The translations under genes and the position numbers were made by a program. From NCBI GenBank assembly GCA_012518115.1, contig JAAYTD010000081.1:1-35980 (forward strand): DNA of 35,980 bases. The letters are read 5' to 3'. Within the stretch, counting starts at the first letter, position 1; the number at the start of each line of letters is the position of its first letter. The notes below the pieces were generated by a model. The model worked only from the letters and a program-made list of their open reading frames with translations. It searched no databases and had not been told where the DNA came from. Shown here one piece after another: positions 12,698 to 31,281 of the stretch. This DNA comes from Ignavibacteria bacterium. GTDB taxonomy: Bacteria; Bacteroidota; Ignavibacteria; Kapaibacteriales; UBA2268.

Positions 12698-15600
12698 CTA
12701 CCTTCCACCTGATATATTGAGCATTATATCCAATCCGATTTGTAATGTATGGTATCCCGGTTGTGCTGCACCTTCATTGAAAGTACCTTCATATCTTATA
12801 AAGAAAGACGCGGTAATAATTTGGCTTATATTATATCTAGCGCGTGGTTCTATAATAATTTGCGTATTTCCTGTTAGCGTTCTTCCGTCGACATTCTCAC
12901 CTGTAAAGCTACCTCTATCTAAAACATCATAAGTTCCTGTATTATTATCTTTGTAAGTAAACAAAAATGATACTTCAAAATCATTTTTCAAGCTAATTCC
13001 GAACAGAGGAAATTCAAATCCTTTCATCACATAGCTTGCGGTTGCAGTTATATCGGTAGTATTTTGCATAGATATAATAGCTCCTGAAGCAGCTGTTGCC
13101 GAATATGCTGTCGTTTGCGACCATTTAACACTTGCTTTCAAAATACCTTTAAATATTTTCTCATCAAAGCTTGCTGATACTCCGAATAATGGCGAGAAAC
13201 CGCTATTTATTGTTTGTGTTCCAAGTGAACGTCCAATATCTGTAACTTGAGCATTTTCTACATAAGTTGAAGTATAGGCATGTTCTATTTGCATATGTTT
13301 TATAAGTCCATTCCATATAGCCCATTTTTCTATTCCTTCCCAACGGAACGACCAATTTATACTTGGTAAAAACTTTCCTATATTTCCACTTGTAAACGAG
13401 AAAGCTTCTAATCCTTCATAGAAAGATTCTGCAAGAGCGGCATGCAAAGCTTGATTTTTTGTAACTGTATCCATATTGGGATTATTATCTATTGATATGC
13501 GTTTTTCGTTAAAAATATTGACAACATTTTCAATAGAATTTCCAAAGAAATGAACACCGAATAATTTAGGACCTGTAATAAAAGTTCTATTTAAGTTTTC
13601 GGTAATCATAATATTAGAATAAGTTGGAATGCCGTTTTCGTCAGTATCAACAGTGTAATTTCTATTATATCCGAGTGTTGATTTCCAGTTCAAATCAATA
13701 GACATATTTTCCAAAATCTTTCTTGAAGTTTTTATATCAAAGTTAGTGTTTTGATTAAAGTTATCTTGAAATACAGCGTTTGCTGGTCTTGGTCCATCTT
13801 TTGCTTCAAATCCAAAATAAGGAAATCTATCAGATTTTAACATTTTAAATGATCCATGAGGATTTGAAATTAATCCGAGTTGATATGCAAAGCTAGGTCC
13901 TCTATGAAGTTGACTTTCGCGTCCAGTAATTCCACGCCCCCAGAAATTATCAAACCCTGTGCTACCGAAAACGCCCGGATTGATAGAAGCATTAGTTTGA
14001 TTAAAAGTTAAATTCAACCTTTCCCAATCAAAAAAGATTGATTGAAAAACATCAGCTATGTCTTGCCATATAGAACCACCAGAATTTGCGTCTTGTGGCG
14101 CTTTACTTGATCTACTACTTCCTGAAGGTCTTCCAAATGGAGTTGCTTTACCGAAAATACTATTTCCTATATCTTGCAATTTCACACCTACAGTAAATCT
14201 TGTATTTGAATTAACACTAGCTCTTTTTGCCGCATCTTTGAGTGCAGGATCGGTTTGTAATGGATCTTGCCATTGATAATTTGCATTATAATTACCGGTA
14301 ATAGTAAAAAATTTATCTAAGCCTATTATATTTGGTAATACTGGATTTATATTTAATGTAACGTTTTGATCGTGGAAGTTCGGATCGCCTAAATTAATCA
14401 ATCTTTCATTTAGTAGTATAACTTTACTCAACTCACTACCTGTTCTTTGCTTTCCTAATTCATTTAACTCATAAGGAACAAGAGTACTTGTAGTTGAAAA
14501 CTTATAATCAAATGTAGGAGATATAAAGCCACCTTGACTTAACTTCCAATTAAATTGCATAGCACGATTTGCTGAAAAATCACGAATTACCGGACTTGGC
14601 ATCTCTAAAAATCTTGATTGTTCTGTTTGCCTACGTCTTTGCATATCTAAATTTGTTGAGAAATTAGAAGGTAAAAAGTTTAGTTTCCAATCTCTATACG
14701 CTCCTATAAAAGGTATTTCAGTAAGGAAAGACAAAGGTTTTACTACTAGTAAATCAGGAATAGGTAAAGAATACCCTAAGTTTAGTCTCCACATCCAATT
14801 AAAGCGTTCTTGATAAAGTGGAGAACGTTCAAATTCTTGTGAATATGAATAAGAAGCGGTAACACTATTAAGAGTTTTATCCACCAACCAATGCCTAATT
14901 GGAATTCCTAATTTAATTCCCGTAAGTGCCCAGCTATCTTGTACTTTTACAGTTTGCGATCGCATTTTCACTTCATCGGCAACTTTTTGAGCAATTTCGG
15001 GCGAAGATCCTCTTGCTATTTCATGATTATAAGCAGTAGCTGCTGCAGTAGCAAGTTCTATATCGTTTGCAGCTTCATATTTTGGATTTTCTATAATTTC
15101 CGAATGCGTATATGAAATAGGAATTTTCATTTGCCTGAAACTTTGTGGTGCAAATTTTTCCAAATTTCCTGTTAATACTATGTTCCACTCTCTGGATTGA
15201 CTACGGTTTCCGTATCGTTCTTCAAGTTGATGAAAGTTCGGTTCATAATTTGAAAATGAGGCATTTATAGTACCTAAATCAGCTAAATTTGTACTAAAGT
15301 TTGCAATTCCCGCCCAATCATTTGAATTTTCAGGTGATATTAATCGTAGTTCATCAACCCAAACAGTTGTCGTAAGTTCTTGAAAAGCATCAGACGGATT
15401 AGCTACACCAAGCCCCACAAATTGGACACGTGTCAAAATAGGATTACCTTTTATTGCAAAGTGTGCAGTTGGATCGTTTGCCACAGGAAAGACTTGTCTA
15501 TCAAATTTCATCATAGTATCACGAACTTGCTTGATAGCTGTCAATTCAGACAAATTAATATCAATCTCTTGCCAACCTTGAACAATAGGTTTTCGGTATT

Positions 15601-18600
15601 CATAATAATTTCCAGAATCTATTCCGAACCTAATAAACGCATAAGCTTTCGGTTTACTTTGTGCGGATATTTCTGACGGCATTGAACCATCACCATGCAA
15701 GAATAGCTTTAGACGTTTATAGTTAAAGAAATCTTGATCGTGGAAAATTTTGACTGCTGATCTTTCTTCGCCCCAACGTAAGTTCTTTACATTTAATGAT
15801 AATGATTGCTCATTTAATCGTGCATCATAAGAATTATCAGCATAAGAAGAAAGTTGTCTAGGTGCTGAAACACCCGGTGGCATAGTATAATAATCCGGTG
15901 GTCCACTATTTTCCCAAACATTAACATAAGATACGGAAAGAGTACTGTCATTAGGATCAAAGTTTTCTTGAAAATTACTCATTCTCTGCCAATAGCTACC
16001 GACAAGCTTCCAATCAGCTACACTTATGGCAACAGGACCGCCTCCAAAACGTACTCTAACATACTGTATATTAGAAAATTGAGGATTACCTACTCTTTTG
16101 TGTGGCTTACGAATAGGTATTCTATATTGGTACCAACCTCTTTCAGGATTACCTCCGACAATTTGCGGATTTCTTTCAGCATTTGTATCTAAATTTATTT
16201 CATAAGTAAAATAGCTATTATCCAAAGAAATAGTTTGTCCATTGTTCGGATTCATCATTTCTTTATCAGGAAACTGTCCAGTTTCTGCATACTTAGCATT
16301 ATTTTCATATTTATTATATCGCATAAAATCTTCGCGAACACGTTTATGATCATCTTTTCCGAAGTCAAAGTAATAATCATCTCTTGCAGGATCATCTTCT
16401 AAATTCAACGGATAAGGATAGACTTCTTTTTCTTGCTCATTATTCAACCCATCTATACCGACATCTTCCCCTTCATCAATAATACCATTCGGCAAAGGAT
16501 TTTTTTCGGTAATTCCATCTTCTGTATCGCCTTTTCCATTAGAAATAATATCTTCTGAAATCATACCCATATCGATATACATTTTGGAATTACCAAGTTC
16601 TACATTATCAACTCTCATCATTATTTCAAGATACTCGATATTATCATCATCAAAGTTTGTACTATATGATGAAAGTATTCTCTGCATTCCGCCCCAAGTT
16701 TTTTTTCTTATTGAAACATCATAGAGATAATGCGGTTCTTCAAATTTAGGATTATCTCTGTCTAAATATTTCGGGTTCATATTATAGATACCTCTGTATG
16801 CCGGCTCAAAGTATATATGCAATACACTAACATTTTGCATACCTGATTGATAGGTTCTATTTTTCGGATATATGTCTGTAATTTTATCTCTAGCTATAAA
16901 GTATTGATACCAGAAAAGTCTTCCACGGAAATCAGAAGCTATTTTTCCTTGTTCAATCTCACTCATGGTAGAATCTATTCCTAGTATTTCAGGCATAATA
17001 GGTGGTGAGCTAAATTGCCATTGTGTAGGTTGTGTAACTAAAGTCGTAGATCTCATTGCCGCTTCAAAATTATCAATTTCGGCTACCGGTTCGTTATTAT
17101 CAGAGGTTATTTCCGATCTAACTCTATTTGGTGTCGGAGACACCATCGCCCATTCCCCAAATAAATTTATAGACGACGGAGTTTTAGTATCATAGAAAGG
17201 TAACATATCTAAAGCTCGTGTAATCCAAGGAGCATCAGCCTGAAAATTAAAATCAAATCCAAGCATAGTATTAGCTATCGGTTCGTCTCCAAGACGGGCT
17301 CGGTCAGAAATTTTTGCTTGTTTGTAATGCATAAAAGTTCCACCTAATGTTGCCGTCATATATCTATTTCTAAAGAGCTCATAGTCGGCTCGAATTCCCG
17401 CCATTGTTTTCGTTGAACTTGTAAAAATATCTTGTTGCTCATATTCAACTTTTAAATTAGCATTTGGCAACATTGCTCTTGGATTTCTTATGGTCAAAGA
17501 ACCTGAAAAATAATCTACAACATAATCATCATACTCACGCAAAAGTACGCCGTCTAAAGTAACTTTAACGCTACCCGGTGAGAGATTAAAAGCTCCTAAA
17601 CTAATTCTATTTGTTGCTCGCCCACTTATTTCCCCAGAAATTACAAATCTATCTCGCGCCGTATTTTTTTTCGCGACTTCCATAGTTGTATCATAAACTT
17701 GGTCAAAAGTATATAATTCAGCTAATTCAGGATTACCTATTTTAGAAAAATAATCACGTAAACCATCACCAAAAGGTTCTGTATGCGGAAATGTAAGTTC
17801 GCCTCGAACAGGATCAAAAAATGCAGCAACTGTAATATCAAATTGTCCGTCAGGTGGAGCGGCTCCTGTTGAATTAGTAACTTGATCGACACCAAGAATA
17901 GTTACTAGTTTATCAGGAGCTCCTTCAAGTAAATCCGTAGAATCGTTAGATTGCTGAATATACCATAAGCTAATATTAGCATCTGCTAAATTAACATTAG
18001 AGCTTCCTATGTTGTATTTATTACGCATCCGTCTTTCCCACAAAGTCTTATATGCAGGCAATAGATTAGGACGATAGATTAATTTCAGGAGAAGTGTATC
18101 TTTTAATCCAACTTGATCGTGAAAATAGCCGTAATAAACATCATCTAAAGTATCGCTAGTAGCGCCTTCAACGCGATAAGAGACCGCATAATATCTATCT
18201 CTACGAAACGTTTTTAAAGTTAGCGTTCCAAGATTATGATCTATTATATATTGATTAGAATCTAATAAAGCAAAACGTCCGCGTTCAACGCTACCTGTTT
18301 TAATAGTAGTTTGCTTTATAGAAACGTCCCAATCTTCGCCCATTTTACGCCTTTTGCCATCTAAATCAGCAATAGCAACAGCGTCAGCAACATGCGGGTT
18401 CGTTATATCTGTGGCAGCTTCCCAAACTTGAATTTGTTTTATACGCAGGGGAGCTCCCGACTTTGGAATTAGAGGAGTTGAATTTTTAAAATAATCATTA
18501 TATACTTTTTTATAAGCAGTATCAAGGAAAAAATGGTTATCCGCATATTGATATGCTCTTAAAGAAAACTTTTGCTTACTAGCGCCACCTGTGACATCTA

Positions 18601-19870
18601 CAAATCTTTTCTGTCCCTTACGCTGCGAAAAAACTGTTTTTAAAAATAAAGGCCCAAACTGAAAATCTGCACGAACTCCAAAGAGCTCAGTTCCACTACC
18701 TATAAGAATTGAAGGAATTTGAAAATCTACATTTCCGACTTCAACTTTTTTTACAATATCGTCTTCGTAACCTTCGTATCCAATCTTAAATTTATTGTCG
18801 TAATTCCACTGATTACGCGTATTTTGATTTATAGAAAATTTTAATTTATCACCAATTCTAGCACCAACATTAACATTAATATCTTGTCTAAATATAGGCG
18901 ATGATTGTATTTGCCCAAAAGCACTAACTGCTCCTAAGTTCTGTTTGTTAATCTGCCAACCTATCGTTACATTAACTTGTCCTGCAACATTTATTGATAA
19001 TTCAGGCTTGCCGAAAATATTCAAAACAGGGTTAGGCGGCAATGGTATAGCTAAACCCGTAGCTTGTCCCAATAAAAACGCTAAATCTTTTCGCGAAAGT
19101 GCTTTCTTAATATCGTAATCCGTAGTGAGCGAATCCCAAATCTTCCCCTGCAAATTCTCTTTACGTCTTGCCAAATAATCATCTAAATCTATCTTATAAT
19201 CATAGCTTAATTCATATTCGTTAAATTTCTCTTGCGTACTTACTAAAGTTCCTGTACTATCTAACTCACCTAATTTTTTATAACCCGACGGCTGAAAATC
19301 TTTCAACGGCTCTTTTGACATTGATTGTCTATCAAGAGCCGGCGGACGCATAAAAATAAATTTATTCTTATGTCTTTTGTAAAGTTCAAAAATAGTTCTA
19401 TCTTGAAAATCTAAATCATTATAATAATCATCAAAAAAGTCGCTATCTTCTACTAAAACAGAGTCTTGAGAGGAGTTGTTATTTTCAAGATTTTGAGCAA
19501 TATCAACTACTTCAAGATTTTGAACTAGCTCTTTAACTGCTTCTTCATCTTGCAGCATTGCAAGGTCAAGTAAATTATCTTGTTTTTGTTCCGTATTGAT
19601 ATTTTTAGAATAGTAGCTCATAATCTCTGAAATATCTTTAACATTATTTTCTGCAAGCATAAAAAATAGAGGCGAGTTAAAAATATAATGATAAGATGCC
19701 CAGTTCATCAATAAGCTATATGAATAGTATGGAGATATAGAATTATTTTTTCCATATCTTTCTTCTGATAGCACAGACATACTATTTGACAAGAATAGTA
19801 TCCACGCTATAAATATTGAAATGAATATATATTTATATGATAATATGTGCGACCTGCAACTTTTTCTCAT
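12698..19870 (-). CDS. sprA: SprA (Sov), T9SS outer-membrane translocon
   Basis: 2390 residues, the usual 2300-2500 for SprA. SprA forms the very large outer-membrane barrel through which T9SS cargo crosses. A signal peptide lies in residues 1-35 (YIFISIFIAWILFLSNSM). The conserved SprA region near residues 335-415 reads GDKLKFSINQNTRNQWNYD, VEVGNVDFQIPS and SGTELFGVRADFQFGPLFLK. Mid-protein there is the acidic segment GIIDEGEDVGIDGLNNEQEK with WYQYRIPI, also characteristic. The remainder is repeated membrane-strand sequence ending QIGLDIMLNISGGR. No frameshift is seen. Other T9SS genes (porK, porL, porM, porN, porV, sprE, sprT) are not in this window. The gene is monocistronic; a good minus-strand promoter at 20071-20103 would give a leader of about 195 bases. 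A palindromic repeat copy lies beyond each end of the gene. Confidence 0.96.
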   Translation of the reverse strand: MRKSCRSHILSYKYIFISIFIAWILFLSNSMSVLSEERYGKNNSISPYYSYSLLMNWASYHYIFNSPLFFMLAENNVKDISEIMSYYSKNINTEQKQDNLLDLAMLQDEEAVKELVQNLEVVDIAQNLENNNSSQDSVLVEDSDFFDDYYNDLDFQDRTIFELYKRHKNKFIFMRPPALDRQSMSKEPLKDFQPSGYKKLGELDSTGTLVSTQEKFNEYELSYDYKIDLDDYLARRKENLQGKIWDSLTTDYDIKKALSRKDLAFLLGQATGLAIPLPPNPVLNIFGKPELSINVAGQVNVTIGWQINKQNLGAVSAFGQIQSSPIFRQDINVNVGARIGDKLKFSINQNTRNQWNYDNKFKIGYEGYEDDIVKKVEVGNVDFQIPSILIGSGTELFGVRADFQFGPLFLKTVFSQRKGQKRFVDVTGGASKQKFSLRAYQYADNHFFLDTAYKKVYNDYFKNSTPLIPKSGAPLRIKQIQVWEAATDITNPHVADAVAIADLDGKRRKMGEDWDVSIKQTTIKTGSVERGRFALLDSNQYIIDHNLGTLTLKTFRRDRYYAVSYRVEGATSDTLDDVYYGYFHDQVGLKDTLLLKLIYRPNLLPAYKTLWERRMRNKYNIGSSNVNLADANISLWYIQQSNDSTDLLEGAPDKLVTILGVDQVTNSTGAAPPDGQFDITVAAFFDPVRGELTFPHTEPFGDGLRDYFSKIGNPELAELYTFDQVYDTTMEVAKKNTARDRFVISGEISGRATNRISLGAFNLSPGSVKVTLDGVLLREYDDYVVDYFSGSLTIRNPRAMLPNANLKVEYEQQDIFTSSTKTMAGIRADYELFRNRYMTATLGGTFMHYKQAKISDRARLGDEPIANTMLGFDFNFQADAPWITRALDMLPFYDTKTPSSINLFGEWAMVSPTPNRVRSEITSDNNEPVAEIDNFEAAMRSTTLVTQPTQWQFSSPPIMPEILGIDSTMSEIEQGKIASDFRGRLFWYQYFIARDKITDIYPKNRTYQSGMQNVSVLHIYFEPAYRGIYNMNPKYLDRDNPKFEEPHYLYDVSIRKKTWGGMQRILSSYSTNFDDDNIEYLEIMMRVDNVELGNSKMYIDMGMISEDIISNGKGDTEDGITEKNPLPNGIIDEGEDVGIDGLNNEQEKEVYPYPLNLEDDPARDDYYFDFGKDDHKRVREDFMRYNKYENNAKYAETGQFPDKEMMNPNNGQTISLDNSYFTYEINLDTNAERNPQIVGGNPERGWYQYRIPIRKPHKRVGNPQFSNIQYVRVRFGGGPVAISVADWKLVGSYWQRMSNFQENFDPNDSTLSVSYVNVWENSGPPDYYTMPPGVSAPRQLSSYADNSYDARLNEQSLSLNVKNLRWGEERSAVKIFHDQDFFNYKRLKLFLHGDGSMPSEISAQSKPKAYAFIRFGIDSGNYYEYRKPIVQGWQEIDINLSELTAIKQVRDTMMKFDRQVFPVANDPTAHFAIKGNPILTRVQFVGLGVANPSDAFQELTTTVWVDELRLISPENSNDWAGIANFSTNLADLGTINASFSNYEPNFHQLEERYGNRSQSREWNIVLTGNLEKFAPQSFRQMKIPISYTHSEIIENPKYEAANDIELATAAATAYNHEIARGSSPEIAQKVADEVKMRSQTVKVQDSWALTGIKLGIPIRHWLVDKTLNSVTASYSYSQEFERSPLYQERFNWMWRLNLGYSLPIPDLLVVKPLSFLTEIPFIGAYRDWKLNFLPSNFSTNLDMQRRRQTEQSRFLEMPSPVIRDFSANRAMQFNWKLSQGGFISPTFDYKFSTTSTLVPYELNELGKQRTGSELSKVILLNERLINLGDPNFHDQNVTLNINPVLPNIIGLDKFFTITGNYNANYQWQDPLQTDPALKDAAKRASVNSNTRFTVGVKLQDIGNSIFGKATPFGRPSGSSRSSKAPQDANSGGSIWQDIADVFQSIFFDWERLNLTFNQTNASINPGVFGSTGFDNFWGRGITGRESQLHRGPSFAYQLGLISNPHGSFKMLKSDRFPYFGFEAKDGPRPANAVFQDNFNQNTNFDIKTSRKILENMSIDLNWKSTLGYNRNYTVDTDENGIPTYSNIMITENLNRTFITGPKLFGVHFFGNSIENVVNIFNEKRISIDNNPNMDTVTKNQALHAALAESFYEGLEAFSFTSGNIGKFLPSINWSFRWEGIEKWAIWNGLIKHMQIEHAYTSTYVENAQVTDIGRSLGTQTINSGFSPLFGVSASFDEKIFKGILKASVKWSQTTAYSATAASGAIISMQNTTDITATASYVMKGFEFPLFGISLKNDFEVSFLFTYKDNNTGTYDVLDRGSFTGENVDGRTLTGNTQIIIEPRARYNISQIITASFFIRYEGTFNEGAAQPGYHTLQIGLDIMLNISGGR

Positions 19871-24144: not shown

Positions 24145-25062
24145 ATGTTAGATGTAATCATAATTTCATATAACGGAAGAAAACTAACGGAAGAATGTAT
24201 CAAATCGCTTGATAATTTATCAACCAAAAATATAAATTTTAAAATCACTATCGTTGATAACAATTCAAACGATGATACTGTTGAATTTATACGCAATAAT
24301 TATAATAATATAAACATTATCGCAAACAAAAAAAATCTCGGATATGCAGCTGCAGTAAATATAGGAATGAAAAATACGAGCTCCGACTTCGCAATAATTA
24401 CGAATAACGATGTTGTTTTTACACCTGATAGCATAGAAAAAATGTTGAATTTTCTCAAAGAAAATCATAATGCAGCTGTTGTTGCCCCACAACAATTATA
24501 TCCTGACGGAAAGTGGCAAAGAAGCTATGGCGATTTTGTTGGCATAAAAAGTGGTTTGAAATATCTATTTCTAGTTACTCTTTTTCAAAATCATTATTTT
24601 CGCAAATTTTATAAAGTTGGAAAAAGAAAAAGACCTAAGCGCGTTGAATATGCTGATGGTGCAGTCTTGTGCATAAAACGCGAGATATTTAATAAAGTCA
24701 ATGGTTTTGACGAAGATTATTTTTTCTATTCAGAAGAAATGGATTTTTGTTATCGTGTGAAACTAGCTAGCTACTCTGTTTGGCATTTGCCGACATCAAT
24801 AGTTTATCATCATCGCGGAGGAAGCGATTTAGCAATGCGTTTTACAGAGAAAAAACAAGAAATGTTAATCGCTTCTAAAATATTATTTTGCGATAAACAT
24901 CTAAGTAATTTTGAAAAAAAATTATATGTTTTGCTGGAAAAACTGCATCATAAATTTATGCTACTAAGCTATAAAATCATCTGTAAACTTAAAAATACCG
25001 AAAAAACAACTTCAAAATTAAACTATTATCAACTAATGCATAGAATCTGGATAAGAAAATAA
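24145..25062 (+). CDS. GT2-family glycosyltransferase (rhamnosyltransferase-like)
   Basis: 305 residues. The GT-A fold of family 2 is clear: VIIISYNGR at the N-terminus, IVDNNSNDDT (about 36-45), NLGYAAAVNIGM for nucleotide-sugar binding, and TNNDVVF as the metal-binding DxD equivalent. The acceptor-side block ADGAVLCIKREIF, then NGFDEDYFFYSEEMDFCYR, is typical of WbbL-like rhamnosyl transferases, and YHHRGGSD follows. There are no strong membrane helices, so it is cytoplasmic or loosely membrane-associated. It would add a sugar to a surface polysaccharide or glycoprotein; donor and acceptor cannot be read from sequence. It is the last gene of the uvrA run, and no other polysaccharide gene is present, so this is an isolated glycosyltransferase. 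Confidence 0.9.
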   Translation: MLDVIIISYNGRKLTEECIKSLDNLSTKNINFKITIVDNNSNDDTVEFIRNNYNNINIIANKKNLGYAAAVNIGMKNTSSDFAIITNNDVVFTPDSIEKMLNFLKENHNAAVVAPQQLYPDGKWQRSYGDFVGIKSGLKYLFLVTLFQNHYFRKFYKVGKRKRPKRVEYADGAVLCIKREIFNKVNGFDEDYFFYSEEMDFCYRVKLASYSVWHLPTSIVYHHRGGSDLAMRFTEKKQEMLIASKILFCDKHLSNFEKKLYVLLEKLHHKFMLLSYKIICKLKNTEKTTSKLNYYQLMHRIWIRK

Positions 25063-25141
25063 TCAAGAAAAACACACACTAATGTTTCATATTTTTACTT
25101 TGGCACAATTTATGTAATTCTATTATAACAAGCACTTGTCA

Positions 25142-25192
25142 AGACACTTTGTCTGGAAACAAGACACTTTGTCGGAAAGTTGACAAAATGTC
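25142..25192. promoter_or_regulatory. Triple GACA-N3-TGTC operator-like array upstream of dnaK
   Basis: Three small palindromes of the form GACA-N3-TGTC: 25143-25153 (extended to AGACA-N3-TGTCT), 25163-25173 and 25182-25192. Their centres are 20 and 19 bases apart, about two helical turns, so all face the same side of DNA. The first two share a 14-bp perfect direct repeat, CAAGACACTTTGTC. The third overlaps TTGACA (25180-25185), and TATAAT lies at 25209-25214. It is not CIRCE (TTAGCACTC-N9-GAGTGCTAA) nor the HspR site. A repressor or activator of the heat-shock gene is the simplest reading. Confidence 0.6.
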
Positions 25193-25250
25193 TAAATAAG
25201 TGGCAAAATATAATAGATATTCATTAATAAAATAAAATATTGTAAAAATT

Positions 25251-27167
25251 ATGGGAAAAATAATTGGAATTGATTTAGGTACAACAAATTCGTGTGTATC
25301 AGTTATGGAGGGAAACTCTCCAGTAGTTATAGCAAATAGTGAAGGTGGACGTACAACTGCATCAATGGTAGGATTTGCAAAAAACGGTGAAAAATTAGTT
25401 GGACAAGCTGCAAAACGTCAAGCAGTAACTAATCCTCACAACACTGTTTATTCAATAAAAAGATTTATGGGGCGTCGTTTAAGCGAAGTAAGCGAAGAAA
25501 TTAATATGGTGCCATATAAAGTAAAATCTTCCGCTGACGGCAATTCTATAAGAATTTCTATAGATGACAAAGATTATTCTGCACCTGAAATTTCAGCGAT
25601 GATACTTCAAAAGATGAAACAAACGGCTGAAGATTTTCTTGGACAAAAAATAGAAGAAGCTATTATCACAGTTCCGGCTTATTTCAATGACGCTCAACGT
25701 CAAGCAACAAAAGATGCTGGAGAAATTGCAGGCTTAAAAGTTAAAAGAATTATAAACGAGCCAACTGCTGCGGCATTAGCTTATGGACTTGATAAAAAAG
25801 GTAAAAATTCAACTGTAGCTATTTATGACTTAGGTGGCGGAACATTTGACGTATCTATATTAGAAATAGGCGACGGCGTTTTTGAAGTGAAATCAACAAA
25901 TGGCGATACTCACCTTGGCGGCGATAATTTTGACCAAAGATTAATTGATTTCTTAGCTGATGAATTTAACAAAACCGAAGGAATTGACTTACGCAAAGAT
26001 CCTATGGCTCTACAAAGATTGCGTGAAGCAGCTGAAAAAGCAAAAATTGAACTTTCGCAAATGTTACAAACAGATGTAAATTTACCTTTTATCACTGCAA
26101 CACAAGACGGACCTAAGCACTTGAATATTAACATAACAAGAGCAAAATTTGAAAATCTATGTGCTGACTTGTTCGATAAAACTTTAATTCCTCTTGAAAA
26201 TGCAATTAACGACGCTAAAATTAATCCAAGTCAAATAGATGATGTTTTACTTGTTGGCGGTAGTACTCGTATTCCAAAAATACAAGAGCTAGTTAAGAAC
26301 TTTTTCGGTAAAGAACCTTCTAAGGGTGTCAATCCTGATGAAGTTGTTGCATTAGGTGCAGCTATTCAAGGTGGCGTTCTTGCAGGTGATGTAAGTGATA
26401 TATTACTACTTGACGTAACTCCTTTAACTTTAGGTATAGAAACACAAGGCGGCGTTATGACTAATATGATAAACGCTAATACAACTATTCCTACAAGAAA
26501 AACAGAAGTATTTAGTACAGCAGCGGACAATCAAACTTCCGTTGAAGTTCATGTTTTGCAAGGTGAAAGACCTATGGCACGCGACAACCGCTCACTTGGA
26601 CGTTTCCATTTAGATGGAATACCAACAGCACCACGTGGCGTTCCACAGATTGAAGTTACTTTCGATATTGATGCAAACGGTATATTATCTGTGACTGCTA
26701 AAGATAAAGCTACTAATAAAGAACAAAATATAAGAATCGAAGCTTCTAGTGGTATCTCTAAAGAAGAAATCGAAAGAATGAAAAATGAAGCACAAAAAAA
26801 TGCTGAAGAAGATAAAAAACGTAAAGAAGAAATAGATCTGAAAAATCAAGCAGATGCTTTAGTTTATTCAACAGAAAAACAATTGACAGAATTAGGCGAT
26901 AAAATCCCTGCTGAACATAAAACTAAAATAGAAGAAGCTAAAACAAAATTAGCACAAGCTATAAAAGATGATAATAAAGATCTAATTAGAACTTCTGTTG
27001 ATGAATTAAATCAAGCATGGTCTAAAGCTTCAACAGAAATGTATTCGCAAGCTAATAATGCTGCAAATGAAGCACAAACAGAAAACCAACAAAATGATAA
27101 TGATAGTTCAACAGACGGTAAAAATACAGTTGAAGAAGCTGATTACAGTGTTGTTGATGACAAATAA
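25251..27167 (+). CDS. dnaK: Chaperone protein DnaK (Hsp70)
   Basis: 638 residues, full length. DnaK is the ATP-driven cytoplasmic chaperone that binds unfolded segments with DnaJ and GrpE. The nucleotide-binding domain has GIDLGTTNS (5-13), [28 protein letters not shown] and [12 protein letters not shown]. The interdomain linker is [16 protein letters not shown]. The helical lid is followed by an Asn/Gln-rich tail ending [11 protein letters not shown], the co-chaperone-binding type of terminus. It is transcribed alone, with the phased palindrome array upstream and a strong terminator downstream. grpE, dnaJ and hrcA are absent from the window. No clear Shine-Dalgarno sequence precedes the ATG, as is common in Bacteroidota. 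Confidence 0.99.
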
Positions 27168-29390: not shown

Positions 29391-29879
29391 ATGAATAAAA
29401 GATTGTTATTTATATTTTCTATATTTATATTATTAATAAGTAGTTGCACTACAACTACGCCAAACATTGAAGATGAGAACGGTAGCTATGCTCTATCTTC
29501 GGACTACAAAGATTTCACTTTATCTTGGGGATACGACTATCAAGCTTCTAATAAAATTATGGGTTATAAGTTATATTCTAACGGAAAAATCACTTTTTTT
29601 CAGCAGGATAAACATACAAAAGAAGTTGTTTCGGACTCAATAGCAAAAATTCCACTAAAAAGGATTTTAAAAATTTTAGAATATACAAATAATGCTTATC
29701 TTTATACTCCGGCTTTAAATGAACCGGGAAAAGAATGCGGATTTGTTGAACTTATAAAACCTACGGTAAACTTTTACTCAAAGGTAAAGTGGAATGAACA
29801 TAAAACTTATGGTAGCGAGACATTTCGGCAATTGTTTGACACTTTATCAACTTTAGTTCCACCAAATTTAGGTAAATAA
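29391..29879 (+). CDS. Small lipoprotein of unknown function
   Basis: The frame is open from an ATG at 29343 inside the previous gene, but the start at 29391 gives a perfect lipoprotein signal: MNKRLLFIFSIFILLISSC with Cys19 as the lipidated residue. The product is 162 residues. After a Thr-rich spacer it has a mixed, probably beta-rich domain (DFTLSWGYDYQASNKIMGYK) with no family that I recognise. Its stop lies one base before the ATG of the NtrC-type regulator, so the two are almost certainly co-transcribed and possibly translationally coupled. An envelope sensor or accessory for the regulator is conceivable but is inference. Confidence 0.82.
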   Translation: MNKRLLFIFSIFILLISSCTTTTPNIEDENGSYALSSDYKDFTLSWGYDYQASNKIMGYKLYSNGKITFFQQDKHTKEVVSDSIAKIPLKRILKILEYTNNAYLYTPALNEPGKECGFVELIKPTVNFYSKVKWNEHKTYGSETFRQLFDTLSTLVPPNLGK

Positions 29880-29880
29880 A

Positions 29881-31281
29881 ATGAAAATTTTGATTGTAGA
29901 TGATAATGTAGATTTCGCTTCTACTATAGCTGATATTATTCATTCTTTTGGATATACTTCGTTTTGTATAAATTCGCCAACCGAAGCTATTTCTTTTATG
30001 GAGGAAAACTATCAAGACATTTCCTTGATATTGCTTGACATTGAGTTTGGCTTCGGTGAAAAAATGAATGGCTTAGATTTACTTGATATATTCAGGCGTA
30101 ATTATATACAAATCCCTATCGTTATGGTAACAGGCAAAGGTACAATAGAAACTGCCGTCAAAGCTACTAAATTAGGAGCGGTAAATTTTATTGAAAAAAA
30201 TATAATTACTAAAGAAAAATTGCGTAACATTGTAGACTCTACAATAAATTCAACTAAAATTAACAGTGAAGATTACGAAATCAGAAACTTCTTAGCAAGC
30301 CTTGGCATAATAGGTGTTAGCAAAGTTATGCTTGACATTGGAAATAGCGTTGTTCGTTACGGACGTACAGATCTAAATATTCTTGTTACAGGCGAAACAG
30401 GAACAGGAAAAAAACTTATAGCCAAAGCTTTGCACTCAATAAGCAGTAGAATGCGTAATCCTTTTATTACTGTGGACATACCTAATATCCCAAAAGTACA
30501 TTTTCAAAGTGAATTATTTGGCTATGTAAAAGGTGCTTTTCCGGGCGCTAATGAAACTAAAAAAGGATTTTTTCAAGAAGCACATAAAGGAACTCTATTT
30601 TTAGATGAAGTTGGTGATTTACCTATAGATTTACAATCTAATTTACTTTCACCTATTGAAGAAAAGATTGTCCGCAAGTTTGGAGCTTTGGAAAACGAAG
30701 AAGTAGATGTACGATTCATCTCTGCAACAGATAAAAACTTACCTGAAATGATGAAAGCCGGAACTTTCCGCGAACAACTATATCACCGCTTGCGTGAATG
30801 TGAAATCTATATTCCAGCTTTACGTGAAAGAACTGAAGATATTCCTGAAATTGTTGCATACTATACTTCTTTGCATAATCAAGACTTTAATGATAACAAA
30901 ATTTTTTCTCAGTCTGCAATAGATTATCTAATGGAACAAGATTGGCCTGGAAATATCAGAGAACTAGCTTCTGTTGTTCGTGTTATATTGCAAACTATCC
31001 AAAAAGAAGAAATTGACTCAACAGATGCTATAAAATTACTTTCAACTAGAGCTTCTAAACAACAACGCATGATTAATATAAGCTCCACTATTTCTCATAC
31101 AAGAACTCTAAAAGAAGATTTAGCCGAAGTCGATAGAATAAAAATAGAAAAAACATTAGAACAAAACAACGGAAATGTAAGTAAGTCTGCAGCTATTCTT
31201 GGAGTTAGTCGTGAAACTTTACACAATAAAATCAAAAGATACGAAATAGATACTTCATCTTTTAGAAAAAAACGTTCATAA
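29881..31281 (+). CDS. NtrC-type sigma-54 response regulator with GAFPGA loop
   Basis: 466 residues with the full NtrC layout. Receiver (about 1-120): Asp7/Asp8, phosphoacceptor Asp53, Thr84 and Lys106; the loop after Asp53 (DIEFGFGEKMNGLDLL) is longer than the usual DIxMPxMDG. AAA+ domain (about 140-380): Walker A GETGTGKK (171-178), Walker B LFLDEVGDL (239-247), probable arginine fingers Arg297 and Arg303, and WPGNIREL. Fis-type helix-turn-helix at about 424-453. The sigma-54 contact loop, normally GAFTGA, reads GAFPGA (218-223), replacing the threonine important for sigma-54 remodelling in well-studied members. No histidine kinase gene is adjacent. The gene is six bases upstream of moxR and likely shares its operon. 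Confidence 0.95.
   Translation: MKILIVDDNVDFASTIADIIHSFGYTSFCINSPTEAISFMEENYQDISLILLDIEFGFGEKMNGLDLLDIFRRNYIQIPIVMVTGKGTIETAVKATKLGAVNFIEKNIITKEKLRNIVDSTINSTKINSEDYEIRNFLASLGIIGVSKVMLDIGNSVVRYGRTDLNILVTGETGTGKKLIAKALHSISSRMRNPFITVDIPNIPKVHFQSELFGYVKGAFPGANETKKGFFQEAHKGTLFLDEVGDLPIDLQSNLLSPIEEKIVRKFGALENEEVDVRFISATDKNLPEMMKAGTFREQLYHRLRECEIYIPALRERTEDIPEIVAYYTSLHNQDFNDNKIFSQSAIDYLMEQDWPGNIRELASVVRVILQTIQKEEIDSTDAIKLLSTRASKQQRMINISSTISHTRTLKEDLAEVDRIKIEKTLEQNNGNVSKSAAILGVSRETLHNKIKRYEIDTSSFRKKRS

Follow-up and report, generated by a model that had tools for sequence, protein, structure and literature searches.

The dnaK Locus and Its Palindromes

The DNA analyzed here (the window) is a stretch of 35,980 nucleotides that carries dnaK (Hsp70; 25251-27167, forward strand; Pfam HSP70, E 4e-267), the gene whose regulation is at issue, and elsewhere a 2390-aa open reading frame (12698-19870). 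Ahead of dnaK lie three GACA-N3-TGTC palindromes, none assigned to a strand: two copies of GACACTTTGTC at 25143-25153 and 25163-25173, and GACAAAATGTC at 25182-25192. Their centers (25148, 25168, and 25187) are spaced 20 and then 19 bases apart. As the preliminary description had stated, a 14-bp direct repeat, CAAGACACTTTGTC, takes in the first two palindromes (25140-25153 and 25160-25173), an extra TGTC half-site can be read in the forward-strand sequence at 25137-25140, and the third palindrome overlaps a TTGACA at 25180-25185. No other GACA-N3-TGTC occurs in the window, for which 0.17 are expected, and three or more were obtained in 0 of 100 shuffles.

Beyond the window we refer to its own genome, a 2.48-Mb assembly (G000), and to the other genome of its genus (G001); genome-wide statements rest on pattern searches. 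Fourteen exact GACA-N3-TGTC sites were counted on one strand of the own genome, vs. nine for the reversed control pattern. Nine of the 14 are isolated and all fall within open reading frames, where single sites occur at the control rate, while the five clustered sites are intergenic and found only before dnaK (three) and groES-groEL (two). The groES cluster comprises the two exact sites and a third with one mismatch, at the same 20/19 spacing as at dnaK. Coordinates, shuffles, and genome counts thus confirm the three phased sites of the preliminary description as a non-random feature, and one that is conserved.

Putative Promoter Elements at dnaK, groES, and clpC

A sigma-54-type element overlooked in the preliminary description, TTGGCACAATTTATGTA, lies on the forward strand at 25100-25116; it was scored against shuffles, and it recurs before groES and clpC. 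Its -24 GG is at 25102-25103 and its -12 G at 25114, followed at 25115 by a T where the consensus has C. The -24 elements of dnaK (TTGGCAC), groES (TTGGCAT), and clpC (TTGGTAT) all fit the TGGCA(C/T) type with GG. At -12, GC is present in groES, in clpC of G001, and in dnaK of three family genomes (G018, G020, and G004). The groES element, TTGGCATACTTTATGCA, is a perfect GG/GC match, and that of clpC reads TTGGTATAATTATTGTA in the own genome and TTGGTATAATTATTGCC in G001, with degenerate sites behind both. RpoN is encoded in the own genome (contig C9; PF04552, E 1.4e-51), and rpoN was found in 39 of 40 family genomes. From the sigma-54 rule we infer a dnaK start at about 25126-25127; with a start near 25127 the array would fall inside the transcribed leader, its first palindrome at approximately +17 to +27.

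Read as a -35 hexamer, the TTGACA box of the preliminary description would imply a sigma-70 promoter, with the palindromes serving as a CtsR- or HrcA-like operator, and the hexamer is indeed there; no -10 follows at a usable spacing, however, the TATAAT coming 23 bp after TTGACA. More generally, a consensus scan of 25051-25250 returned no properly spaced sigma-70 -35/-10 or Bacteroidetes-type -33/-7 pair. As the preliminary description had stated, the known operators do not fit either: the CIRCE element TTAGCACTC-N9-GAGTGCTAA was not found at the dnaK promoter with up to six mismatches allowed, and the motif scan gave no match to the HAIR operator of HspR and only five-mismatch look-alikes of the CtsR operator. 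With HrcA also not found in the genome, we regard such a promoter as highly improbable.

When promoter and sites were searched for together in the own genome, the pattern TTGGYA-N6-WTG-N15..45-GACA-N3-TG matched only before dnaK, groES, and clpC; reverse and control matches were both zero. The same three genes were returned in G001, and in every case the sites follow the promoter and are helically phased. Given the sigma-54-type promoter upstream, activation by an enhancer-binding protein (bEBP) is the likeliest reading. We consider it probable that the array acts as a downstream enhancer of a bEBP-activated sigma-54 promoter and that dnaK, groES-groEL, and clpC are controlled together. The module common to these three genes supports the heat-shock control proposed in the preliminary description, with heat induction of the regulon being assumed from the identity of its target genes. 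Sigma-54 use and activation at dnaK are themselves predictions from sequence. Speaking against the enhancer reading is the -12 of the window dnaK, which is G-T and not G-C; downstream enhancers are, moreover, uncommon.

The groES promoter also suggests what this module may have displaced. HrcA was found in neither G000 nor G001, and no CIRCE precedes groES in either; HrcA is present in 25 of 40 family genomes, and CIRCE is seen at most readable groES upstream regions of the family. Since the genus lacks features that are common in its family, the control of groES has probably been rewired, and judging from these patterns a sigma-54/GACA module probably replaced HrcA/CIRCE at groESL. G018, in which HrcA was likewise not found, has groES immediately behind dnaK, so that groES may share the dnaK module. 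These absences are read from assemblies of 95-100% completeness. In G014 (contig C5, 10284-10517), a short sequence resembling HrcA and containing three stop codons is possibly an hrcA remnant.

Site Geometry and Conservation

Within the family, a sigma-54-type element was found in about 18 of 30 dnaK upstream regions. It is missing in 12, most of which have an upstream hsp20, and no such element was found before the upstream hsp20 in the family genomes checked. Among hsp20-first loci, clear sigma-54-type elements precede hsp20 in L190, L208, and L209, accompanied by enhancer-like sites in L190 and L208; in L181 and L196 sites are present and the promoter scores are weaker. The 18 family dnaK upstream regions with the element contain 30 sites with at most one mismatch (0.59 expected), vs. 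two sites in the 12 regions without it. The array is conserved among relatives.

Counted from the first base of -24, the sites lie at +43, +63/64, and +82/83 before dnaK and groES of G000 and before groES of G001; dnaK of G001 has the second and third of these positions, and the sites of G025/G062 match this layout within two bases. In other genomes, sites are found at +51-54, +72-75, +84, +91-93, and +100-105. Relative to the promoter, site positions follow a period of about 10 bp (R 0.77, a value reached by 0 of 2000 null sets, whose mean was 0.24), although the relatedness of the genomes means that these shuffle and phasing statistics overstate independence. Such phasing lends support to the cooperative binding on one DNA face that the preliminary description had suggested.

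That description had also considered a hairpin in the leader RNA, in which the first or second site pairs with the third; with the first and third paired, such a hairpin could control dnaK translation or termination, for example as a thermosensor. The dnaK leader does fold better than shuffled sequences (z -3.48), but nearly the same stability is obtained when the palindromes are kept and the rest is shuffled (z -1.0). The structure is absent in relatives: the leaders of six of them, and of groES, fold differently, with unusual stability in G032 only, and the sites shift by helical turns, as protein-DNA contacts would. We regard the hairpin as very unlikely.

Outside the family, we found GYCA-N3-TGRC in 19 of 26 dnaK upstream regions with a good sigma-54 score (0.4 expected; reversed control at chance), in a set spanning Ignavibacteria, Bacteroidota, KSB1, and Gemmatimonadetes. 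Among genomes of the Fibrobacterota-Chlorobiota-Bacteroidota (FCB) group other than Gemmatimonadota, most of those that have a site carry it 94-151 bp ahead of the sigma-54 element. Kapabacteria differ in having GACA sites downstream of the promoter. By its nearest relatives among named dnaK loci, from which its own genus was absent, the window belongs to Candidatus Kapabacteria. Because the same 4-3-4 repeat recurs at the sigma-54-type dnaK promoters of other phyla, GACA-N3-TGTC appears to be the Kapabacteria form of a wider GNCA-N3-TGNC enhancer. Within the family the inverted repeats are several and helically phased, and their position relative to the promoter varies between phyla (upstream, adjacent, or downstream). 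In Gemmatimonadota (L222, L231, L234, L235, and relatives) GYCA-N3-TGRC stands at a fixed -19 from the -24 start, unusually close for a bEBP enhancer. A different long palindrome, GACAGAATGTCATTCAAAATGACATTCTGTC, was noted before an ECF-type sigma gene in a more distant genome of the family (G011; L017, about 1501-1531).

These distances also bear on whether the palindromes might be operators of a TetR-, MarR-, or Xre-like repressor that blocks the start or leader and is released on heat. Sites downstream of the predicted start occupy a classic repressor position, and with HrcA lost in the genus another repressor could have taken its place. A simple repressor would, however, hardly be workable at the 94-151 bp upstream seen in those FCB genomes, and the sigma-54-type promoter needs a bEBP site, the palindromes being the sole repeated motif noticed ahead of dnaK, groES, and clpC. 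We therefore think a repressor unlikely.

Candidate Activators

The own genome encodes only three proteins of the bEBP class, designated EBP-A, EBP-B, and EBP-C. Contact with sigma-54 needs the GAFTGA loop, which reads GAFTSA in EBP-A, GAFTGA in EBP-B, and GAFPGA in EBP-C. EBP-C (receiver-AAA+-Fis-HTH; 29881-31281, forward strand) is encoded near dnaK and is not favored, given GAFPGA in place of GAFTGA; the loop is degenerate in all four copies compared (own, G001, G031, and G060). EBP-C and its orthologs resemble a regulator that descends from a bEBP but has given up contact with sigma-54. A pair of sites with three mismatches before its gene (29819-29848) was likewise set aside, as it lies within an open reading frame and such pairs occur at the control rate.

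EBP-A, which has no receiver domain, is encoded on contig C71 (L256, 4573-5769). It is a stand-alone bEBP in an operon (L256, 3511-5769), where its gene follows those of a J-domain protein (PF00226) and a rhodanese-domain protein (PF00581) with a hydrophobic N-terminus. This J-domain-rhodanese-EBP-A operon is conserved across Kapabacteria, including lineages for which KatS3mg040 is the closest named relative. In Ignavibacteria and Bacteroidota the EBP-A ortholog has another conserved neighborhood, with miaB-, TPR-, and LptE-like genes (translations judged by eye). Its helix-turn-helix is conserved FCB-wide and ends close to ISERTL(Y/F/H)RK. An EBP-A-type match from AAA+ to HTH was obtained in 17 of 24 genomes with a sigma-54-type dnaK and in 0 of 5 Acidobacteriota, a comparison confounded by phylogeny. 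EBP-A is also found in family genomes whose dnaK has no array, and its presence alone is therefore no proof that it pairs with the array. Before the J-domain operon (L256, 3380-3515) we noted an element, TATCTTTG, like the Bacteroidetes -7 motif.

The enhancer array could alternatively be served by EBP-B, an AtoC-like, receiver-domain protein that would be kinase-driven. EBP-B has the canonical GAFTGA and an HTH, but the two species of the genus diverge far more in this HTH than in that of EBP-A (20/24 identical), while the operator is the same in both, and the neighborhood of EBP-B has no chaperone link. We give EBP-B a small chance of being the activator. By elimination and genomic context, EBP-A is the better candidate, with somewhat more than an even chance of being the bEBP at the array.

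With EBP-A as activator, sigma-54 RNA polymerase would sit at 25100-25116, and three Fis-type bEBP dimers would occupy the three palindromes on one DNA face, from about +17 to +66. The dimers would then form an AAA+ hexamer that uses ATP to open the promoter. The J-domain neighbor tentatively suggests chaperone feedback on EBP-A: the J-protein and DnaK may restrain it, and unfolded protein occupying them would set it free. Such restraint can be likened to that of sigma-32 and to that of PspF by PspA. On the broadest view, EBP-A (a conserved bEBP associated with LptE-like or J-domain genes in the FCB group and relatives) might act via GNCA-N3-TGNC enhancers as master activator of a heat-shock regulon with sigma-54 promoters; in Kapabacteria a dedicated J-domain partner would tune it and it would act in the leader, and the HrcA/CIRCE regulon would have passed to it in one genus or more. 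We put this generalization at a little less than an even chance.

Comparison With Known Systems

Much of the microbiota of the gut and the environment belongs to the FCB group, and to our knowledge it is not settled how chaperones are switched on in many of its members. With a short motif and one candidate activator for dnaK in several phyla, this question would become directly testable, and the loss of HrcA with the probable rewiring of groES offers a clear example from nature of a stress circuit being replaced by another. The idea that sigma-54 controls chaperones has a precedent: a 2025 survey found, in Bacteroidota and Planctomycetota, an enrichment of sigma-54-type promoters before groEL, groES, grpE, dnaJ, and dnaK (PMC12316311). 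In its available text, that survey proposes neither an activator nor an enhancer motif for chaperone genes and does not contain the terms Gemmatimonad or Ignavibacter, and the paper it cites for Bacteroides (ref. 80) deals with a cockroach endosymbiont, its relation to the claim not being apparent (PMC12316311). We found no literature dealing directly with such chaperone control in Kapabacteria or Bacteroides. What we propose as new is the enhancer motif with its position, the three-gene regulon, the replacement of HrcA, and the candidate activator.

The putative regulon shares the targets groES and dnaK with HrcA/CIRCE, but the genus has neither CIRCE nor HrcA. Closer in geometry is NorR, whose core GTCA-N3-TGAC has the 4-3-4 arrangement of the array. 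At norVW of Escherichia coli, NorR uses three enhancer sites, the same number as here, which are essential for activation and scaffold a higher-order oligomer (PMC2941729). The NorR sites, however, lie upstream, and the Kapabacteria half-site differs from theirs. NorR also has a nitric-oxide-sensing GAF domain, while EBP-A has no N-terminal domain and scores below the curated NorR cut-off (306.6 vs. 476 bits). For the downstream position, the parallel is FlrC of Vibrio flagellar genes, whose sites typically lie downstream of the start and act as true enhancers (PMC6504787), although FlrC is a receiver-domain protein with flagellar targets and another motif. EBP-A also falls below the curated cut-off for PspF (286.8 vs. 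443.55 bits). Like EBP-A, PspF has no N-terminal receiver, and a partner in trans could restrain EBP-A as well; that partner would be a J-domain protein and not PspA.
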